From NCBI GenBank assembly GCA_002050365.1, contig MWYZ01000048.1:1-64000 (forward strand): a stretch of 64,000 bases of DNA. The letters run 5' to 3'. A model generated the notes under the pieces. It saw nothing but the letters and a program-made list of their open reading frames with translations, was not told where the DNA came from and ran no database searches. Source of the DNA: Acidobacteria bacterium 28-1 (GTDB lineage Bacteria; Acidobacteriota; Blastocatellia; Pyrinomonadales; Pyrinomonadaceae). Made by a program: the position numbers and the translations under genes. Of the stretch, positions 4,993 through 50,795 are shown in pieces. The stretch's first letter is position 1. Every line of letters starts with the position of its first letter.

Positions 4993-5945
4993 TTAGTAAT
5001 CAGCCGGACTTTTCACGCCGAGTTTGTTTTGCTGCAAAACGTGAGTGTAAATCATCGTCGTTGAAAGTTCTTTGTGTCCGAGCAAATCTTGAACGGTGCG
5101 AATGTCGTAACCGTCCTGCAAAAGATGCGTTGCAAACGAATGGCGCAAAGTGTGCGGGCTGGCGTTTTTCGGAATGCGGCTTTTTCGCAGTGCCTCTTTG
5201 AATGCCTTTTGCAGACTCGAAGGCGAAACGTGTGTCTACCCGTTTGATTCGTCCGCGGATTAATGCTTAAACTTTTCGACGGGAAAACGAATTGCCAACA
5301 CCATTCCTTTTCGGCATTCGGATATTTTCTCGCTTAAGCAAAAGGCATTTCCACTCGTCCGAGTCCGCGCTGCAAATCTTGTTCGTGTAATTTTTCAGCC
5401 ATTACCAATTGCTTTTGCAGCGGCTCAATCAATTTGGTCGGCAAAACGGTGAATCGGTCTTTCCCGCCTTTCCCGTCGCGCACGACAATCTGTTTGAATC
5501 CGAAATCCAAATCTTTGACGCGCAGGCGCAAAGCCTCCTGCAGACGCAACCCCGCGCCGTATAGTAAATTGGCAATCAGCCAATTCGTTTCTTTTAATTG
5601 ACTGGTTATTATTTTTACTTCGGCTTTGGTCAATACGACGGGAATGTGGCTGGATTTTTTAGCAGGCGTAAATTTTTCGAGCCACGGCAAATCCACGCTC
5701 AAAACTTCGCGGTAGAGAAACAGCAAAGCGGCAAGTGCCTGATTCTGCGTTGAAGCCGCAACCGTTCGCTCAACCGCCAAATGTGTTAAAAACGCTTCGA
5801 CTTCCGCCGCACCCATTTCCTTCGGGTGTTTTATATCGTGAAAACGAATATATTGAAGAATCCATTCAATATAAGTTTTCTCCGTCCGATAGCTGTAATG
5901 TCGTGTTCGCAACACGGCACGAACTTGGTCAAGCAATTTGGACAT
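4993..5945 (-). pseudogene. intI: integron integrase (IntI, tyrosine recombinase), inactivated
   Basis: N-terminal ORF 5334..5945 (HYSYRTEKTYIEWILQYIRFH...LLYGAGLRLQEALRLRVKDLDF). After an in-frame TAA the same frame continues [34 protein letters not shown]; after a 1-nt frameshift it resumes [78 protein letters not shown]. Confidence 0.9.
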
Positions 5946-6094
5946 AATTTAATAATTCGGCATAAAAATTTAGGCGGAATTTTTTATTTAGCCACGAAGA
6001 TAGCTCAACCATCAATTAAAATCAAACTCTTTATTGACTTTCGACTAAAAAAGCCTTATAAAAAATTCGGTCTAAGAAAACTATAATTCAGCAG

Positions 6095-6112
6095 AATACA
6101 AAGTTAGATGCT
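6095..6112 (+). promoter_or_regulatory. putative attI-proximal core / first cassette boundary (G^TTAGATGC)
   Basis: GTTAGATGC at 6103-6111, between intI and the first cassette. Confidence 0.5.
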
Positions 6113-6221
6113 TCGTGTTTAAAAACACTAAGACAACAGCAATTTGAAAACCGAATCAATACGCTCCGCGTTTCCCGCAAAGTTGCGCGAAGCTAAGCGG
6201 TGTGCTAAAGATAATGATGCA

Positions 6222-6334
6222 TTGAACAATTCAATGGATGGGAGGGCGAAATAGCGACTTTGTTATTTGGCTTGCGTGGTTACTTTCGGCAGGCTCGATG
6301 ACGGTTTCGCACCACATCATCTCCGCTGCTGGGC
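6222..6334 (+). repeat. attC site of ORF-less cassette A
   Basis: TTGAACAATTCAATGGATGGGAGGGCGAAAT ... GGTTTCGCACCACATCATC; long imperfect palindrome similar to attC-C, F, G, H. Confidence 0.7.
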
Positions 6335-6477
6335 AGTCGCGGTTTCAGACATGAGAGCCTGTTACACGGAGGCTATTTAGTATTCTGAAGTCGTGCTGGT
6401 TTCCGCAAGTTTAGGGAGTCTGTCGTAAAGACGTATCTCCCACGCGGCACAGGGAATATGGATATTAGCAAACGCAA

Positions 6478-7611
6478 GTGGCTTACCCGTTGGAGCCGCA
6501 GAAGTGGGAGGATCGCTATATGGCAAATATTATTCCATGGGTAGGAGCGAACCGGATCGCCATCGTACCGGTCTTTAATCGTCAGGTGGACTCAGAGCCG
6601 CCGCCTGACTGGGCATATCAGGTCAGAAATCGAGTCTTCTATGATCCCGACCCGGCAACTGGCGTGGATCGCTCGTTTCAGAACTATATCAAGACTTTGT
6701 CTTACGGCACAGCATGGCTTGAGGGCGACGTATTTCCTAGCGTGTGGTCCGAAGACGCCACGATCAATATACCAGCCATGAACTCGTTACCAGGTAATCA
6801 CGGCTATAAACACCTTGTTGCCGTGTTGCCGCATTCTTTTGGCGAACATCGTGGTGGACTTGCCTTCATGGATGTCCCGGCAGTAAATGGCATTACCTCG
6901 TGGGCACGTGTAGCACTTTACGAAGACCGATTCCTAACTGCACGACAGCCGATGGGTGTCTGGGGCATGGAGATTCTTCACATGGAGACGATGTTTCTCG
7001 ATCTCTATCTCACGAATCCGAACCTCGGGAGTTATGATGTCATGGCAGGTGCTGGAGCCACCACCCACGCTACTGCTCATACCAAGCAAGCGATGGGCTG
7101 GCTTGCTCATGGGAAGATATTGAATCATAGTGGCGGAACTACGGACTTGAATTTACAGGCAATTTCGATGCCGCAGCCGCCGCCGCCGGGTCGGGTCACT
7201 GCGGTTCGCATTCCGTCAAGGCTGACTTCGAATCACTTTGTGGTGGAGGCGCGAGTTGCCACCGACCAATACGAGAAGCGAGATAGTCCGGGCGATGGAA
7301 TCCCTATGGATGCCGTCATCATCTATGAAGTGGTAAGTATCTTCACGGTTTTCCTCCGTGCGACGCTGAGTGTGAATCAGACATTCACTATTGCCGGAGA
7401 AGGGCTGACAGTAAAGGTGACTCAGTCCATTCCCGGGGGGTTTTCGGTTTCGATCAAAACGACACCGGGAGCGGAGTGCGGTCAATTGCGAGAGGAGATC
7501 GCCGCTCTCAGGGAAGATGTAAGGACGGAAGAGGATCCGTTCGTGCGCCGGCAGATGCGTGCCCGCATCGCAACGCTGACGGCGAAAGCCACGCAACTCG
7601 GTTGTCCATAG
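6478..7611 (+). CDS. integron cassette B protein; M6-metalloprotease-like domain apparently lacking HExxH
   Basis: 377 aa, GTG start (internal ATG at 6520); GVWGMEILHMETMFLDLYLTNPNLGSYDVMAGAGATTHATAHTKQAMGWL resembles the M6 layout (HExxH..DLYD..WDVM..P.A..K..LGW). Confidence 0.55.
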   Translation: MAYPLEPQKWEDRYMANIIPWVGANRIAIVPVFNRQVDSEPPPDWAYQVRNRVFYDPDPATGVDRSFQNYIKTLSYGTAWLEGDVFPSVWSEDATINIPAMNSLPGNHGYKHLVAVLPHSFGEHRGGLAFMDVPAVNGITSWARVALYEDRFLTARQPMGVWGMEILHMETMFLDLYLTNPNLGSYDVMAGAGATTHATAHTKQAMGWLAHGKILNHSGGTTDLNLQAISMPQPPPPGRVTAVRIPSRLTSNHFVVEARVATDQYEKRDSPGDGIPMDAVIIYEVVSIFTVFLRATLSVNQTFTIAGEGLTVKVTQSIPGGFSVSIKTTPGAECGQLREEIAALREDVRTEEDPFVRRQMRARIATLTAKATQLGCP

Positions 7612-7628
7612 GTCCGTAGGGCAGGTTA

Positions 7629-7812
7629 CGCTTCGCTAACCCGCTGTTCCAGCGCACGGTAAAGGCGAGCAGAGTTCCAAGGACAGTATACTCAACCATC
7701 AGGAAGGTCCAGCATATCGTGCGTTGCCCACAATGCGCTCAATCCGATCGCCGGGATGTCGGTTCTTTTAGGTGGGTGTCGTTCCGCGGCGGGTTAGCCT
7801 GGGCGTTAGATG
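7629..7812 (+). repeat. putative attC of cassette B (different family)
   Basis: CGCTAACCCGCTG (about 7629) pairs with GGCGGGTTAGCC (about 7790), followed by GCGTTAGATG. Confidence 0.4.
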
Positions 7813-7920
7813 ATTAGTGTTTAAAAACACAAAGCGACGGCGAATTTAAAAATCAAGCAAACACGCTCCGCGTTTCCCGCGAAGTGGCGCGTAGGCAAAC
7901 GGCGTGGTGAAATCGGAAAC

Positions 7921-8035
7921 GCATCTAACAAGTCATTGGACGTGAGGGCGAAACAGCGACTTTCTTATCACGTTGTCTTTTGAACTCGGAGTTGCGCGTA
8001 TTCGGTTTCGCCCCACGTCAATTCGGTCGTTCGGC
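7921..8035 (+). repeat. attC site of ORF-less cassette C
   Basis: GCATCTAACAAGTCATTGGACGTGAGGGCGAAACAGCGAC ... CGGTTTCGCCCCACGTCAATTCGGTCGTTCGGC; arms GGACGTGAGGGCGAAAC / GTTTCGCCCCACGTC. Confidence 0.85.
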
Positions 8036-8136
8036 AACTTCAAAGCAGCGCTCGGGTAGGCGCCGCCAGTCAACGCCCGAGCGGCACTAGTGGCGGCGCG
8101 CTTGACACTTACAATCTCTTTGTGATACAGTAGTGT

Positions 8137-8754
8137 TTGCTAGTCAATCAAGGAGCATTCCCAGGATGGAACACCATGAGCCAAAATGAAACCCCTATCT
8201 TATTTGCCCACAACCCCTTAGGTATCTCTTACAGCGATTTTCTTTTCGCCTACCGGAAGGAAGCTTCCAGAATTGTAAAGCTCGCAAAAGGAGACAGCGC
8301 GCTCTTCTTCAAGCACGCCTTGGCTGTTCTTGAACAGAAAAAGGTCATCACTGGACCTGAGGCAAAAACGCTTGAAGATTGTATTGCCCGGACGATGTAC
8401 GCTCGCACCGGAAAAGCAAAGGTGCCTAGTACTTTGATCGCGCTACAGAATACGCATGCGAAAGCGCTTATTGATGGAAATAGCAATTCGTTTTACTTAA
8501 ATTATATTAATCTGTGTGTCGGATTGGTTCGGGAAGTAGAAGGAAAAGAACTTCCTAAAAACCCCACCACCCCACAGAACTCGTCACGCACATTTACGTT
8601 TCCGGCAGGGAGCGGTGGTGCCATCCTTTATGGTGCAATAGCCGGTGCGGCTATTGGTGAGTCCTTGGGCGGACCAGCCGGAGCTGTAATCGGTGGAATT
8701 GCTGGTGGACTCGTAGGTGCGAGTAGCGATGTGGATGTGACCACTCCGACTTAG
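8137..8754 (+). CDS. integron cassette D protein with C-terminal glycine-zipper segment
   Basis: 205 aa; GGAILYGAIAGAAIGESLGGPAGAVIGGIAGGLVGASS; likely start MSQNETPILFAHN at about 8176. Confidence 0.6.
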   Translation: MLVNQGAFPGWNTMSQNETPILFAHNPLGISYSDFLFAYRKEASRIVKLAKGDSALFFKHALAVLEQKKVITGPEAKTLEDCIARTMYARTGKAKVPSTLIALQNTHAKALIDGNSNSFYLNYINLCVGLVREVEGKELPKNPTTPQNSSRTFTFPAGSGGAILYGAIAGAAIGESLGGPAGAVIGGIAGGLVGASSDVDVTTPT

Positions 8755-8892
8755 AAATTAAGGCTCCTTGCTGTTTTGAGTCGGTAAGCTGAAGTTGAAG
8801 GGGATTGAAGAAGTGCCGCTGCGCAGGAGCAGTCGCTCAAGAAATCACGGTTCCTTCCTCTAAGTAGGTGGACGTAAGTTTCCGCACGCCAA

Positions 8893-8998
8893 CGTCGCCT
8901 AACCATGCGCTGCAGCGAATTGCTCCTGCTTCCCGCAGACTCGCCGCGCAGGAGCAGTGCCGCCCTCCGCTGCCGCTGAGCTTGGGGTCGTTCGACGC
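8893..8998 (+). repeat. attC site of cassette D
   Basis: GTCGCCTAACCATGCGCTGCAGCGAATTGCTCCTGC ... GCAGGAGCAGT..CGCTGCCGCTGAGC..GTCGTTCGACGC. Confidence 0.7.
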
Positions 8999-9105
8999 TT
9001 CGCATCTTTCAAAACATTAGCAATTTGTGCAAAACTTCAAGTCAAACGCTCCGCGCTTTCTGCGAGTGCGGCGCAAACTGCAACGGGCGTCCCTTATCGC
9101 AAAGG

Positions 9106-9210
9106 CGCGTCGAACAAGTCATTGGACGCGAGGCGGATGACGCACTTTCATCGCGGGAACAAACTTCTTTTTGAGATGTTTCCCGCCCGCGTCAATTCCG
9201 CCTTAGACGC
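9106..9210 (+). repeat. attC site of ORF-less cassette E
   Basis: GCGTCGAACAAGTCATTGGACGCGAGGCGG ... CCCGCCCGCGTCAATTCCGCCTTAGACGC. Confidence 0.75.
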
Positions 9211-9312
9211 TTCTTTGAAAAAAGATAAACGAAATGTTAAAAACAACAAATCGTTTTGCGCGGGGCGCAAAAGACATTCGGTTGTTTGCGGCTCGTGGTT
9301 TCCCGCCACGCC

Positions 9313-9426
9313 GCGTCTAACAAGTCGCTGGACGTGAGGGCAAAACAGCTACTCTTTAAAAACGTCCTTTCGTAATTCAGAGTTGTGTGTATCTGGTTTT
9401 GCCCCACGTCAACTCAACCGTTCGGC
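9313..9426 (+). repeat. attC site of ORF-less cassette F
   Basis: GCGTCTAACAAGTCGCTGGACGTGAGGGCAAAAC ... GGTTTTGCCCCACGTCAACTCAACCGTTCGGC. Confidence 0.85.
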
Positions 9427-9489
9427 TTTTCTTGGTAATCCGTAGCGAATGAGATAGAAAGCGTTAATTGTTTTTGCTACACTTGGCTT

Positions 9490-9963
9490 ATGAAGCCGTC
9501 CGTTTATATCGAAACCACGATTATCAGTTATTTGACAGCTAAACCCAGCCGCGATTTGGTGACTGCTGCTCATCAACAAATTACAACCGAATGGTGGACG
9601 GATGTGCGCCCGCAAGTTGATTGTTATGTTTCGCCTTTTCTCATTGACGAAGCATCACGCGGAGATGCAACTTACGCGCAAAAGCGGCTCGACGAGGTTG
9701 TTGATTTCACCGTGCTTGAAGTCAATGAGGAAATTGAAGATTTAGCACAACAGTATTTTGCAGCGTTGCAGATTCCTGAAAAAGCAAAGATTGACGCTTT
9801 TCATTTGGCTGTTGCGGCTTGGCATAAAATGGATTATTTGCTTTCGTGGAATTGCAAACATATTGCGAGCGGGCGCGTCCAAAAGATGATGCAGGAAATT
9901 AACGCTCGTCTTGGAGTTCACACGCCGATAGCTTGCACACCCGAAGAATTGATGGAGGTTTGA
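9490..9963 (+). CDS. PIN-domain toxin-like protein (cassette G)
   Basis: MKPSVYIETTIISYLTAKPSRD...CYVSPFLIDEAS...KIDAFHLAVAAWHKMDYLLSWNCKHIA; PIN-fold acidic positions. Confidence 0.82.
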   Translation: MKPSVYIETTIISYLTAKPSRDLVTAAHQQITTEWWTDVRPQVDCYVSPFLIDEASRGDATYAQKRLDEVVDFTVLEVNEEIEDLAQQYFAALQIPEKAKIDAFHLAVAAWHKMDYLLSWNCKHIASGRVQKMMQEINARLGVHTPIACTPEELMEV

Positions 9964-9968
9964 GGATT

Positions 9969-10148
9969 ATGTGGGAAGACCCGATAGTGAAAGAGGTTCG
10001 TCAAGCGCGGCTTGAAATCGAGCAGGAATGCGGCGGAGATTTTCGCAAGATTTACGAGCGAGCATTAGAAATACAGAAGAAAGTTGCTGAGAAGCGAGCT
10101 TCCGATTCTACCGTGAAAGCCCAAAAAGAAGCATTGCTTGTAGCCTAA
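9969..10148 (+). CDS. putative antitoxin partner of the PIN protein (cassette G)
   Basis: Starts MWEDPIVKEVRQARLEIEQECGGDFRKIYERALEIQKK, 5 nt after the toxin stop; charged helical protein. Confidence 0.7.
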   Translation: MWEDPIVKEVRQARLEIEQECGGDFRKIYERALEIQKKVAEKRASDSTVKAQKEALLVA

Positions 10149-10152
10149 GACA

Positions 10153-10267
10153 AGCCGAACAATTCAATGGATGTGAGGGCGAAACAGCGACTTTGTTATC
10201 ACGTTGTCTTTTGGACTCAAACGGGCTTAGTGGCGGTTTCGCCCCGCGTCATCTCAACCGTTCGGCT
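10153..10267 (+). repeat. attC site of cassette G
   Basis: AGCCGAACAATTCAATGGATGTGAGGGCGAAACAGCGAC ... CGGTTTCGCCCCGCGTCATCTCAACCGTTCGGCT; outer arms AGCCGAAC/GTTCGGCT perfectly complementary. Confidence 0.88.
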
Positions 10268-10780: not shown

Positions 10781-10914
10781 AGCCGAACAAGTAGAACCAC
10801 TGCCAGAGGCAGTGGCTTTTCTTAGTCATTGGACGTGAGGGCGCGGGCAGCGACTTTGTTATCGCGTTGTCCGTTACCCATAGCTTGTGTGTATTCGGTT
10901 TCCGCCCCGCGTCA
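10781..10914 (+). repeat. attC site of cassette H, interrupted twice
   Basis: AGCCGAACAAG + inserted hairpin + TCATTGGACGTGAGGGCGCGGGCAGCGAC...CGGTTTCCGCCCCGCGTCA, then the expected R' half is replaced by IS110-related sequence. Confidence 0.75.
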
Positions 10915-11610
10915 GATACTGTGTTGAATGTCAAACTGATTTCACCCATTGCGGGTCAAATGGTTTTCCAGTCTTTAACACTCCATAAGCGAGATGAATC
11001 AGTTTTCGCATCGCCGCTCCGATAACCGCCATTTTGCATTTGCCGCGCTCGCGTAATCCCGAAGCCCATTGTTGAAAAAAGGCACTCCATCGAAGAGCCG
11101 TGAGTGCCGGAAAGTAAAGAGCCTTCCGCAGGCAGGCATTACCGATTTTTGATAATTGAGTGTGTCCGCGCACTGAACTTCCTGAACGCCTTTGACGCCG
11201 AACCAGCCGGGCGTCAGCGGCAACCTGGCGTGCGCTTTTGGATTGCTTAATGTTCACAATTTCGGCAAGTAGCAAAGCGGTTGTCGCCGCGCCGATGCCG
11301 GGAATCGAATCAAGCAAAGCGCTTTTCTGTTTCAGGTCGGGATGATTGTTAATGTGTTCTTGAATCATCTGTTCGGTCTGTTTGATTTGTTCAATCAGGT
11401 AAGCGATGTGTTCTTCGAGACGGGGTCGGACTGCGGCAGTCGAAATGCCGGATGAGAGACGATTTTCTTCCGCGACGCGCCTCTCAATCAGTGATTCGAG
11501 GCGGCGCACCAGTGCTTGCAGTTCGCGTACTTCCAGTGACGGCGGTCTCCACATCGGCGGTTGCTGCGTGAGGCAAAAGCGAGCAATCAGAGCGGCATCT
11601 ACTTTGTCCC
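10915..11610 (-). mobile_element. IS110-family transposase, 5'-truncated
   Basis: ...DKVDAALIARFCLTQQPPMWRPPSLEVRELQALVRRLESL...LDSIPGIGAATTALLLAEIVNI...GNACLRKALYFPALTALRW; catalytic N-terminus absent. Confidence 0.85.
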
Positions 11611-49700: not shown

Positions 49701-50705
49701 GGCGAAGACGTTTTGATCATCGGCGGAACGCCGGGAATGCTTTACAATTTAATTAAACGCGGGGCGAATCGCGGCAAAAAAGACATCAATTGGGCGGCGC
49801 AGTATTTCGATCTGGTCGTCGTTGACGAAGCCTCGCAGATGGGTTTAGCCGAAGCCTTAACCGCCGCCGCTTTTCTGAAATCCGACGGGCAATTCGTCGC
49901 TATCGGAGACCACCGCCAAATGCCGCCAATCTTAGTGCACGCTTGGGACAGAGAAAGCCGCCGCGATTTGGAACGAATCAAACCACATCTTTCCATCTTT
50001 GAATTTCTCCAAAAATCCGGCTTTCGCTCCGCCGCATTAGATGAATCTTTCCGCATTCCGGCAGAAGTCGCCGAGTTTCTGGACGAACACATTTACCGGC
50101 AGGACGGCGTTAAATTTCACTCGAAAAACCGGCAGCGAATCGCCGCAATAGAAGAATTTGACGAGGAATGGCTTGCCGCGGTCTTCGCGCCCGAACATCC
50201 GCTCGTCCTTCTCGAACACGGCGAAAATCAATCGGCTCACGCCAACGAATTTGAAGCTGATTTGATCGAACAAATCATTTATCTTGCCAAAGCAAAGTTA
50301 AACCTTCACGAAACAGAAGGAATCGGCATCGTCGTCCCTCACCGCGCGCAAAAAGCTCTTTTGCAAACGCGACTTCCGCATCTGGCAAATTCGATTGATA
50401 CGGTCGAAAGATTTCAAGGCGGCGAGCGTGATTTGATTATTGTTTCCGCCACCGTTTCAAGCCGCGATTTCGCCCACGCCGAAATGGAATTCCTGCTCGA
50501 CCCGCGCCGCCTGACGGTCGCCATCTCGCGCCCGAAACAAAAGATAATCGTCGTCGCTTCGCAAACCGTTTTCAATCTGATTCCAAGCAATCTGGACGAC
50601 TATGAACGCGGCGCGCTCTGGAAACATCTGCATCGAGACTGCCGCCAAAAAACATTATGGCAAGGTAAGATTGGAAATCAGACTATTAATATCTTTGCTC
50701 GATAA
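46773..50705 (+). CDS. TM0106-like RecB-nuclease/SF1 helicase fusion (Dna2-like)
   Basis: CVIDIKSSRRETTGYRLQVAFYARLL nuclease motif, CDGCRFNAAC cysteine cluster, LQGPPGTGKSHTLG Walker A, VVVDEASQMGLAEAL, C-terminal VERFQGGERDLIIVSAT. Confidence 0.88.
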   Translation: MTLPTERNLTADRLAQYVKRNRCERFLRFSLFKSEADSFARRYGVRLETLSPLLAESGQSYEREVVRELAANGATVQDLFNKPSADFLDTIASQTTGKVFYYQAKLAGSIGLIECEGIADLILIEKLSSDSFNVCVIDIKSSRRETTGYRLQVAFYARLLEEMLARRNWRINDLKGAIHLKGKTLSTDAIDTFELGLYADEIERLVAVENSDVARVVKSAFADTAYHLNYNCDGCRFNAACFVQAAETEDLSLIPQLTATEKLVLKTEGYDKLSKVSALFEYGQKEMISADASSGDGERLNKNWALSGKMPIIAQRARAALHRFDKTTDFRSFIVGSDFGTLPDTNRYPELVRVFIDTQHDYLNDRLYMFSAVVAGAALSREICEIAAAPPDDESEQQLLISGVQKVLQAIGETADSTHAPVHFYLFDRRSQESLKAALTRHFAALCAIPAFYDLLTASPTLSQPMISFLADDVQARRNLKNLGQNLYQVAGEMKFDWTGGERNIKERFRAKIFDNFRKYSRSEVGEFAPAESGKDNIRDVWIEASARFGTEIPLEYAYAAWGELESPENVSDAGRMQLEGFLGTTLEEMRELAVLRCRALQHIEESFGYKNREIEKQELNLTRLHEVEIEPEAVPLSRAIEDFLFLEHHARRQEAYLFFALPPDVRAASGRCAVIRNEELREENKQLFAEFSFSDVNGNEPSAAEQKMVRFRVGDWVVLNELRNENGKFPSAKSIVTGRLAIVEEVGAEKIVLNLNSMCNASAFRFAHRLFKPVAGKLYTIDKMLDDFNSDKFLAACRQAELTNPLYRWLTDAEEGKAPRLIRPSRKRAAQAVAALANSSQQPHNLTDAQKEIIGNLLEEKAFVLQGPPGTGKSHTLGFAVLARILALKVQGKPFRVAVSAKTHHAVKIALGSIAKRAKLLVENISGEPILAPLANLKVYKLCHEMSEDIPDGVTAISPDGDEDLKAAAQWDKLEGEDVLIIGGTPGMLYNLIKRGANRGKKDINWAAQYFDLVVVDEASQMGLAEALTAAAFLKSDGQFVAIGDHRQMPPILVHAWDRESRRDLERIKPHLSIFEFLQKSGFRSAALDESFRIPAEVAEFLDEHIYRQDGVKFHSKNRQRIAAIEEFDEEWLAAVFAPEHPLVLLEHGENQSAHANEFEADLIEQIIYLAKAKLNLHETEGIGIVVPHRAQKALLQTRLPHLANSIDTVERFQGGERDLIIVSATVSSRDFAHAEMEFLLDPRRLTVAISRPKQKIIVVASQTVFNLIPSNLDDYERGALWKHLHRDCRQKTLWQGKIGNQTINIFAR

Positions 50706-50708
50706 TGA

Positions 50709-50795
50709 CTGAGATGACGTGGCGCAAAACACACGCAAGTTGGATAACCATTCAACGTCGCTGTTTTGCGCTCACGTCCATTGACTTGTTAGATG
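50709..50795 (-). repeat. solitary attC site of GIY-YIG cassette
   Basis: - strand GCATCTAACAAGTCAATGGACGTGAGCGCAAAACAGCGAC...GTGTTTTGCGCCACGTCATCTCA; near-identical core and arms to attC-C/G of the integron. Confidence 0.85.

Follow-up and report, generated by a model that had tools for sequence, protein, structure and literature searches.

Gene-free minimal integron cassettes with a conserved core and an excess at array heads in an acidobacterial genus

From our analysis, two gene-free cassettes of the integron array studied here, A and C, belong to a conserved family of minimal cassettes, each consisting of a noncoding body and an intact host-type attC, and ORF-less cassettes are found in excess at the first position of arrays, directly behind attI and the promoter Pc. 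We tentatively favor the idea that the A/C family would serve as a transcribed, cis-acting leader or buffer cassette, whose transcription and action we infer from sequence. The window, by which we mean the whole 64,000-nt stretch analyzed (contig C17), comes from a MAG of a soil-type acidobacterium (Pyrinomonadaceae, Acidobacteriota; 4.15 Mb, 109 contigs), and its array has the following features.

5334..5945, (-): intI fragment, 203 aa, the N-terminal two thirds (TIGR02249, 3.3e-76, profile positions 1-200 of 315)
5946..6103, (+): leader with attI and Pc, ~160 nt, ending ...AGAATACAAAG|TT; the broken integrase gene faces it
6034-6039 and 6057-6062, (+): Pc in the leader, TTGACT, 17 nt, TATAAA, from a promoter consensus scan
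6104-6328, (+): ORF-less cassette A, directly at attI; body 6104-6220, attC 6221-6328
6158..6173, (+): core in A (AATACGCTCCGCGTTT), from the alignment
6329..7805, (+): coding cassette B, 54% GC, no host-type attC by the attC profile
6478-7611, (+): cassette B protein, 377 aa, M6-metalloprotease-like (weak match to TIGR03296, E=4e-4, well short of the cut-off)
7806-8029, (+): ORF-less cassette C; body 7806-7921, attC 7922-8029
7860..7875, (+): core in C (AACACGCTCCGCGTTT), from the alignment
8030..8990, (+): coding cassette D, 205 aa (8137-8754); attC of another type, R'' CGCCTAAC
8991-9202, (+): ORF-less cassette E; attC 9108-9202, diverged; probable distant A/C-family member
9203-9420, (+): ORF-less cassette F, of a family separate from A/C
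9421..10260, (+): cassette G, PIN-domain protein (9490-9963; Pfam 4e-4, slightly under the cut-off) and a small downstream ORF; host-type attC, 107 bits
10261..10923, (+): cassette H, 80-aa ORF and DUF2283 protein (3.3e-19); attC with a 31-nt hairpin insert

The four ORF-less cassettes of 212-226 bp that an earlier note on this DNA had described are indeed present (A 225, C 224, E 212 and F 218 nt), and the alternation with coding cassettes that it reported is also seen, with B and D separating A, C and E. None of the four has an ORF longer than 56 aa: the longest on either strand is 36 aa in A, 36 in C, 49 in E and 56 in F, so that all are ORF-less in the sense used here (no annotated gene, no ORF of at least 70 aa). 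In each, a host-type attC makes up about half of the length. Cassette boundaries were placed by R'/R'' complementarity; each cassette is bounded by G|TT core sites and carries its own attC, and because its start (e.g., TTAGATGC, TTCGACGC, TTAGACGC) is the reverse complement of its own R'' (GCATCTAAC, GCGTCGAAC, GCGTCTAAC), the strictest criterion that sequence offers identifies A, C, E and F as cassettes. The R'/R'' complementarity of cassette A is imperfect at 2 of 9 positions (GCATTGAAC). The attCs are host-specific and fold on the bottom strand; with a trained profile A, C and F score 83, 113 and 91 bits, while that of E has diverged (25 bits) yet folds strongly. The host genome has over 60 attCs of this one type, ~113 nt each, spread over many short arrays, which resemble a superintegron broken into pieces. 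Other MAGs of the genus carry attCs nearly identical to them. A lone host-type attC with one upstream gene lies in the window at 50703-50795 (-), 40 kb from the array.

Upstream of cassette A, the integrase fragment contains Pfam SAM-like and Phage_integrase domains, with C-terminal remnants in other frames down to about 5006. Orthologues in three related genomes (G001, G003, G004) are 84-86% identical and open over 318-335 aa, against 204 aa for the window copy, which, judged by its reading frames, is broken. The leader promoter agrees with the consensus at 10 of 12 positions in the consensus scan, a level that 0 of 60 shuffles reach. A homologous attI and Pc leader heads ~17 arrays in the genus, mostly with no adjacent integrase; judged by these leaders, arrays that tools would call integrase-less clusters retain their own promoter and attI here. 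Copies of the leader up to 93% identical are dispersed in the same genome and its relatives with no adjoining integrase (L012:11020-11174, L022:6352-6502, L020:6561-6694, L063:8705-8864, L140:4829-4982, L052:2421-2724 and others), and two leaders stand in tandem in G003:C150.

Cassettes A and C are homologous across the whole body, with ~77% identity. A covariance model built from ten bodies (R1) recovers A at E=5.6e-19 and C at E=7.5e-19, both being among the model-building sequences. Eleven full-length matches to R1 have E<1e-13 (five in the source genome G000, one in G002, three in G003 and two in G004), of which ten had built the model and one, G004:C242, is new. In a search of 119 genomes of the bacterial family, G025 gave the sole match from outside the genus, a weak and partial one (E=0.005), and a plasmid search with cassette C gave no match. 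A coding cassette in G008 has the first 81 nt of the A/C family as its 5' region, ahead of the ORF. The bodies in the family are ~110-120 nt long, of fixed length, and ~70% identical between members. E, by contrast, is a probable member (E=0.0005 with a profile that excludes it; E=0.016 with a covariance model that does not contain it), whereas a close copy of F scores E=0.29 with R1, F lacks the core, and its body has as sole relative found G000:C36:49614-49727 (91% identical). Therefore, the single family of A, C, E and F that had been suggested from the sequence holds for A and C, probably extends to E, and does not include F, which by these matches belongs to a separate family. The lack of further copies elsewhere, which the earlier note had named as a point that would speak against it, is contradicted by copies in four congeneric genomes. 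The A/C family, with its host-type attC, fixed-length body and single core, appears genus-specific, native and still mobilizable. Among the lengths of 199 cassettes of the genus, most gene-free ones fall at 206-227 nt and nearly all coding ones exceed 500 nt, with one cassette between 340 and 500 nt.

Several further observations concern related cassettes. A second ORF-less family of ~333 nt occurs at L016:6666-6838 (-), L043:17050 and L020:6695, once at a first position, and 2 of its 3 copies carry the motif ACGCTCCGCG near the 3' end. At L048:7201-7426 (G003:C149), an A/C-family member follows an attC in inverted orientation. Two family members (L153:984-1100 and L062:268-385) have attCs cut directly after R'' and followed by similar sequence (GTGATACAA), which suggests that a single insertion event, or a single element, lies behind both.

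Within the A/C alignment, a 15-nt core (AAGACGCTYCGCGTT) has a mean pairwise identity of 0.92 versus 0.56 overall (permutation p=5e-5), a conservation inflated in part because some relatives were first detected via the core, while A, C, C48 and G003a were detected by matches across most of their length. In sequence, the core is nearly palindromic (AAACGC-TYC-GCGTTT). Genome-wide it occurs at about the control rate, and thus it is special to these cassettes and was rejected as a general DNA-binding motif; scans of named genomes and viruses for it found nothing. We also rejected the body as a degenerate second attC, since the attC profile has no match in it, and as an "empty chassis" of all coding cassettes, since the outer 10-25 nt alone are common to a minority of these.

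The conserved element is not a peptide. A conserved small ORF, the other observation that the earlier note had set against its proposal, was looked for and not found in the A/C family: nearly all frames contain stops, those few that are open vary from one member to the next, and the gaps near and after the core have lengths not divisible by three. The lack of a shared frame, together with these non-triplet indels, therefore led us to reject a small-ORF reading.

The position of ORF-less cassettes in arrays is uneven. With a 60-aa limit, they occupy 5 of 17 first positions behind attI/Pc versus 9 of 202 others (p=0.002), a count to be read with the fact that the MAGs are fragmented, several loci were chosen for a family hit and same-genome members are not independent. 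With a 70-aa limit, the numbers are 6 first and 11 other positions (p=0.0006), the sixth being a broken gene; the first cassette at L139 was rejected as ORF-less, as it reads as a broken gene. Conversely, 12 of the 17 heads carry no ORF-less cassette (<60 aa), and C and E do not stand at an array head. In G000, the first-position cases are C17, C48, C72 and C11, that of C72 lying behind a second, intact integrase. One more copy, in G002:C20, directly follows an attI too and was left out of the count, its attC being truncated. In the G004 array with an intact integrase, the first cassette (492 nt, ORF of at most 74 aa) contains three core-like motifs.

We suggest a mechanism that could account for these findings. 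A first-position noncoding cassette begins ~40 nt after the -10 box of Pc, from which we infer that its transcript would form the 5' portion of the array mRNA. The core, either by itself or paired with CGCGAAG in a stem, would then be the functional element and would alter how strongly the cassettes behind it are expressed. Each new gene that the integrase takes up at attI would displace the leader cassette, and the reinsertion of another copy at attI would restore a leader, leaving the A-B-C-D-E alternation. F, an unrelated second ORF-less family, may have the same role or none. A stronger form of this idea, in which the noncoding leader is selectively maintained and each capture would be followed by integrase-driven re-insertion of a gene-free module at attI, seems to us rather unlikely. 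If it were true, the regulatory or buffering element at the array head would always be the same, and the expression of captured genes would be set by a mobile noncoding unit and not by the distance to Pc alone.

The neighboring cassettes B and D have no match to the host attC profile and are called foreign by attC and composition only; in C109 and G004:C242, likewise, the cassette before the family member has an attC of a different type. This alternation with foreign attCs is an observation that carries no statistic, foreign attCs not having been collected systematically. The cassettes before C (6478-7611) and before the member in C109 (L010:3086-4483) encode metalloprotease-like proteins of 377 and 465 aa, the first called by its weak M6 domain match and the second by eye only. 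B has no relative in the plasmid search, and D has its own promoter-like site at 8102-8131 in the promoter scan. Farther along the array, the 31-nt hairpin insert of cassette H (AGAACCACTGCCAGAGGCAGTGGCTTTTCTTA, 10786-10817) recurs at L009:6131-6165, so that two attCs of this genome carry it in the same position, and related hairpins are found at attC-like sequence in G002 (L058, L060, L133); they are perhaps the ends of an attC-targeting transposable element. IS110/IS1111 elements enter attC sites, and an IS110-family transposase gene lies directly after the attC of cassette H (10917-11554), whose R' end seems cut.

Another possibility, nearly as likely as the cis-acting leader, is that these minimal cassettes are hypermobile: passengers that carry an attC, do nothing for the host and would pile up at attI because of frequent excision and reinsertion. 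The suggestion that these are selfish minimal units draws on their very small size, with attC as about half of the cassette, on their intact attCs and on their presence in several arrays per genome; the attI-proximal bias and the mixing with cassettes lacking a host-type attC (B, D, C109, G004:C242) are explained equally well by passengers and by a leader. A conserved core outside attC would, however, be unneeded by a passenger, and its identity of 0.92 versus 0.56 is left unexplained unless the core, if functional, serves the cassette's own mobility; its near-palindromic form could, for example, make a hairpin in a single-stranded intermediate. The ~70% identity between members, which gives no sign of a recent copying burst, and the several diverged copies within one genome also speak against passengers.

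That the body instead starts transcription of the next cassettes, as promoter cassettes do in Vibrio and Treponema, we consider unlikely. Most gene-less Vibrio cassettes tested had sense-strand activity that software had not predicted (PMC11014356); promoter cassettes not being predictable in silico, an absent consensus is therefore weak evidence. The promoter option of the earlier note keeps marginal sigma-70-like matches in F, C72 and G004, while the bodies of A, C and C48 are at the level of shuffles on both strands, the A/C alignment has no conserved -10/-35, and the bodies, at ~110 nt, are shorter than the 335-515 nt of Vibrio. A strong and conserved Pc, the clear TTGACT-17-TATAAA of the leader, is already upstream at the head and would make a second promoter redundant.

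A trans-acting small RNA gene, similar to sRNA-Xcc1, is less probable still. The body is noncoding and length-constrained and has a conserved segment, and its 5' hairpin is somewhat stabler than those of coding cassettes (p=0.007-0.013); two hairpins are possible, weakly supported, and one candidate stem could join the core to CGCGAAG. Against a small RNA, a search of Rfam gave no match even at E<=1, covariation marks a single helix, the R'/R'' terminus, which is itself required for recombination, and folding z-scores of the sense strand lie between about 0 and -2.8, with similar values for the antisense strand. Scans of the bodies found no promoter of their own and no sense-strand terminator. 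Least probable of all are coding cassettes that lost their gene and kept their ends: the last 20-25 nt and a CTTCGTG start are common to some coding cassettes and the G008 hybrid joins the family's 5' part to an ORF, but independent deletions would not yield an identical body of 110-120 nt with its core in four species, and the 340-500 nt range holds a single cassette.

ORF-less cassettes as such are an already known kind (PMC11014356, PMC6557892, PMC8876359). The gene-less cassettes of Vibrionaceae superintegrons (491-666 bp, bodies of 335-515 nt, measured promoter activity; PMC11014356) resemble ours in having a host-type attC and no ORF above 70 aa and in belonging to large chromosomal integrons, and differ from them in that ours have 206-227 bp, ~110-nt bodies, one conserved family and no promoter consensus. 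The Treponema cassettes from an oral metagenome are also ORF-less, and TMB4 is first behind Pc (PMC6557892), a position that occurs here too. As cited in that paper, ORF-less first cassettes are rare there, making up 1 of 42 in marine and 1 of 5 in oral samples, versus 5 of 17 here. As described in PMC8876359 and PMC12444791, sRNA-Xcc1 of Xanthomonas (Chen et al. 2011) is also an integron cassette, one with a noncoding product, and recurs in several species; it shares its cassette with symE and is transcribed against Pc (PMC12444791). The noncoding Pc-attI transcript of class 1 integrons, an sRNA of ~300 nt upstream of aadB (PMC8876359), is also a Pc transcript of the array head, but it comes from a fixed 5' conserved segment, whereas here a mobile cassette would be transcribed. 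The experimental work that we found on gene-free cassettes concerns the Vibrio and Treponema promoter cassettes, and our literature search found no paper describing the A/C minimal family. To our knowledge, the new elements are therefore the conserved minimal family of ~220 bp, the host phylum and the first-position excess. Compared with the known systems, a defined family with a conserved core and a head bias, in a phylum with little-studied integrons, offers a concrete test case of whether noncoding cassettes are array regulators or the minimal mobile unit that an integrase can maintain.
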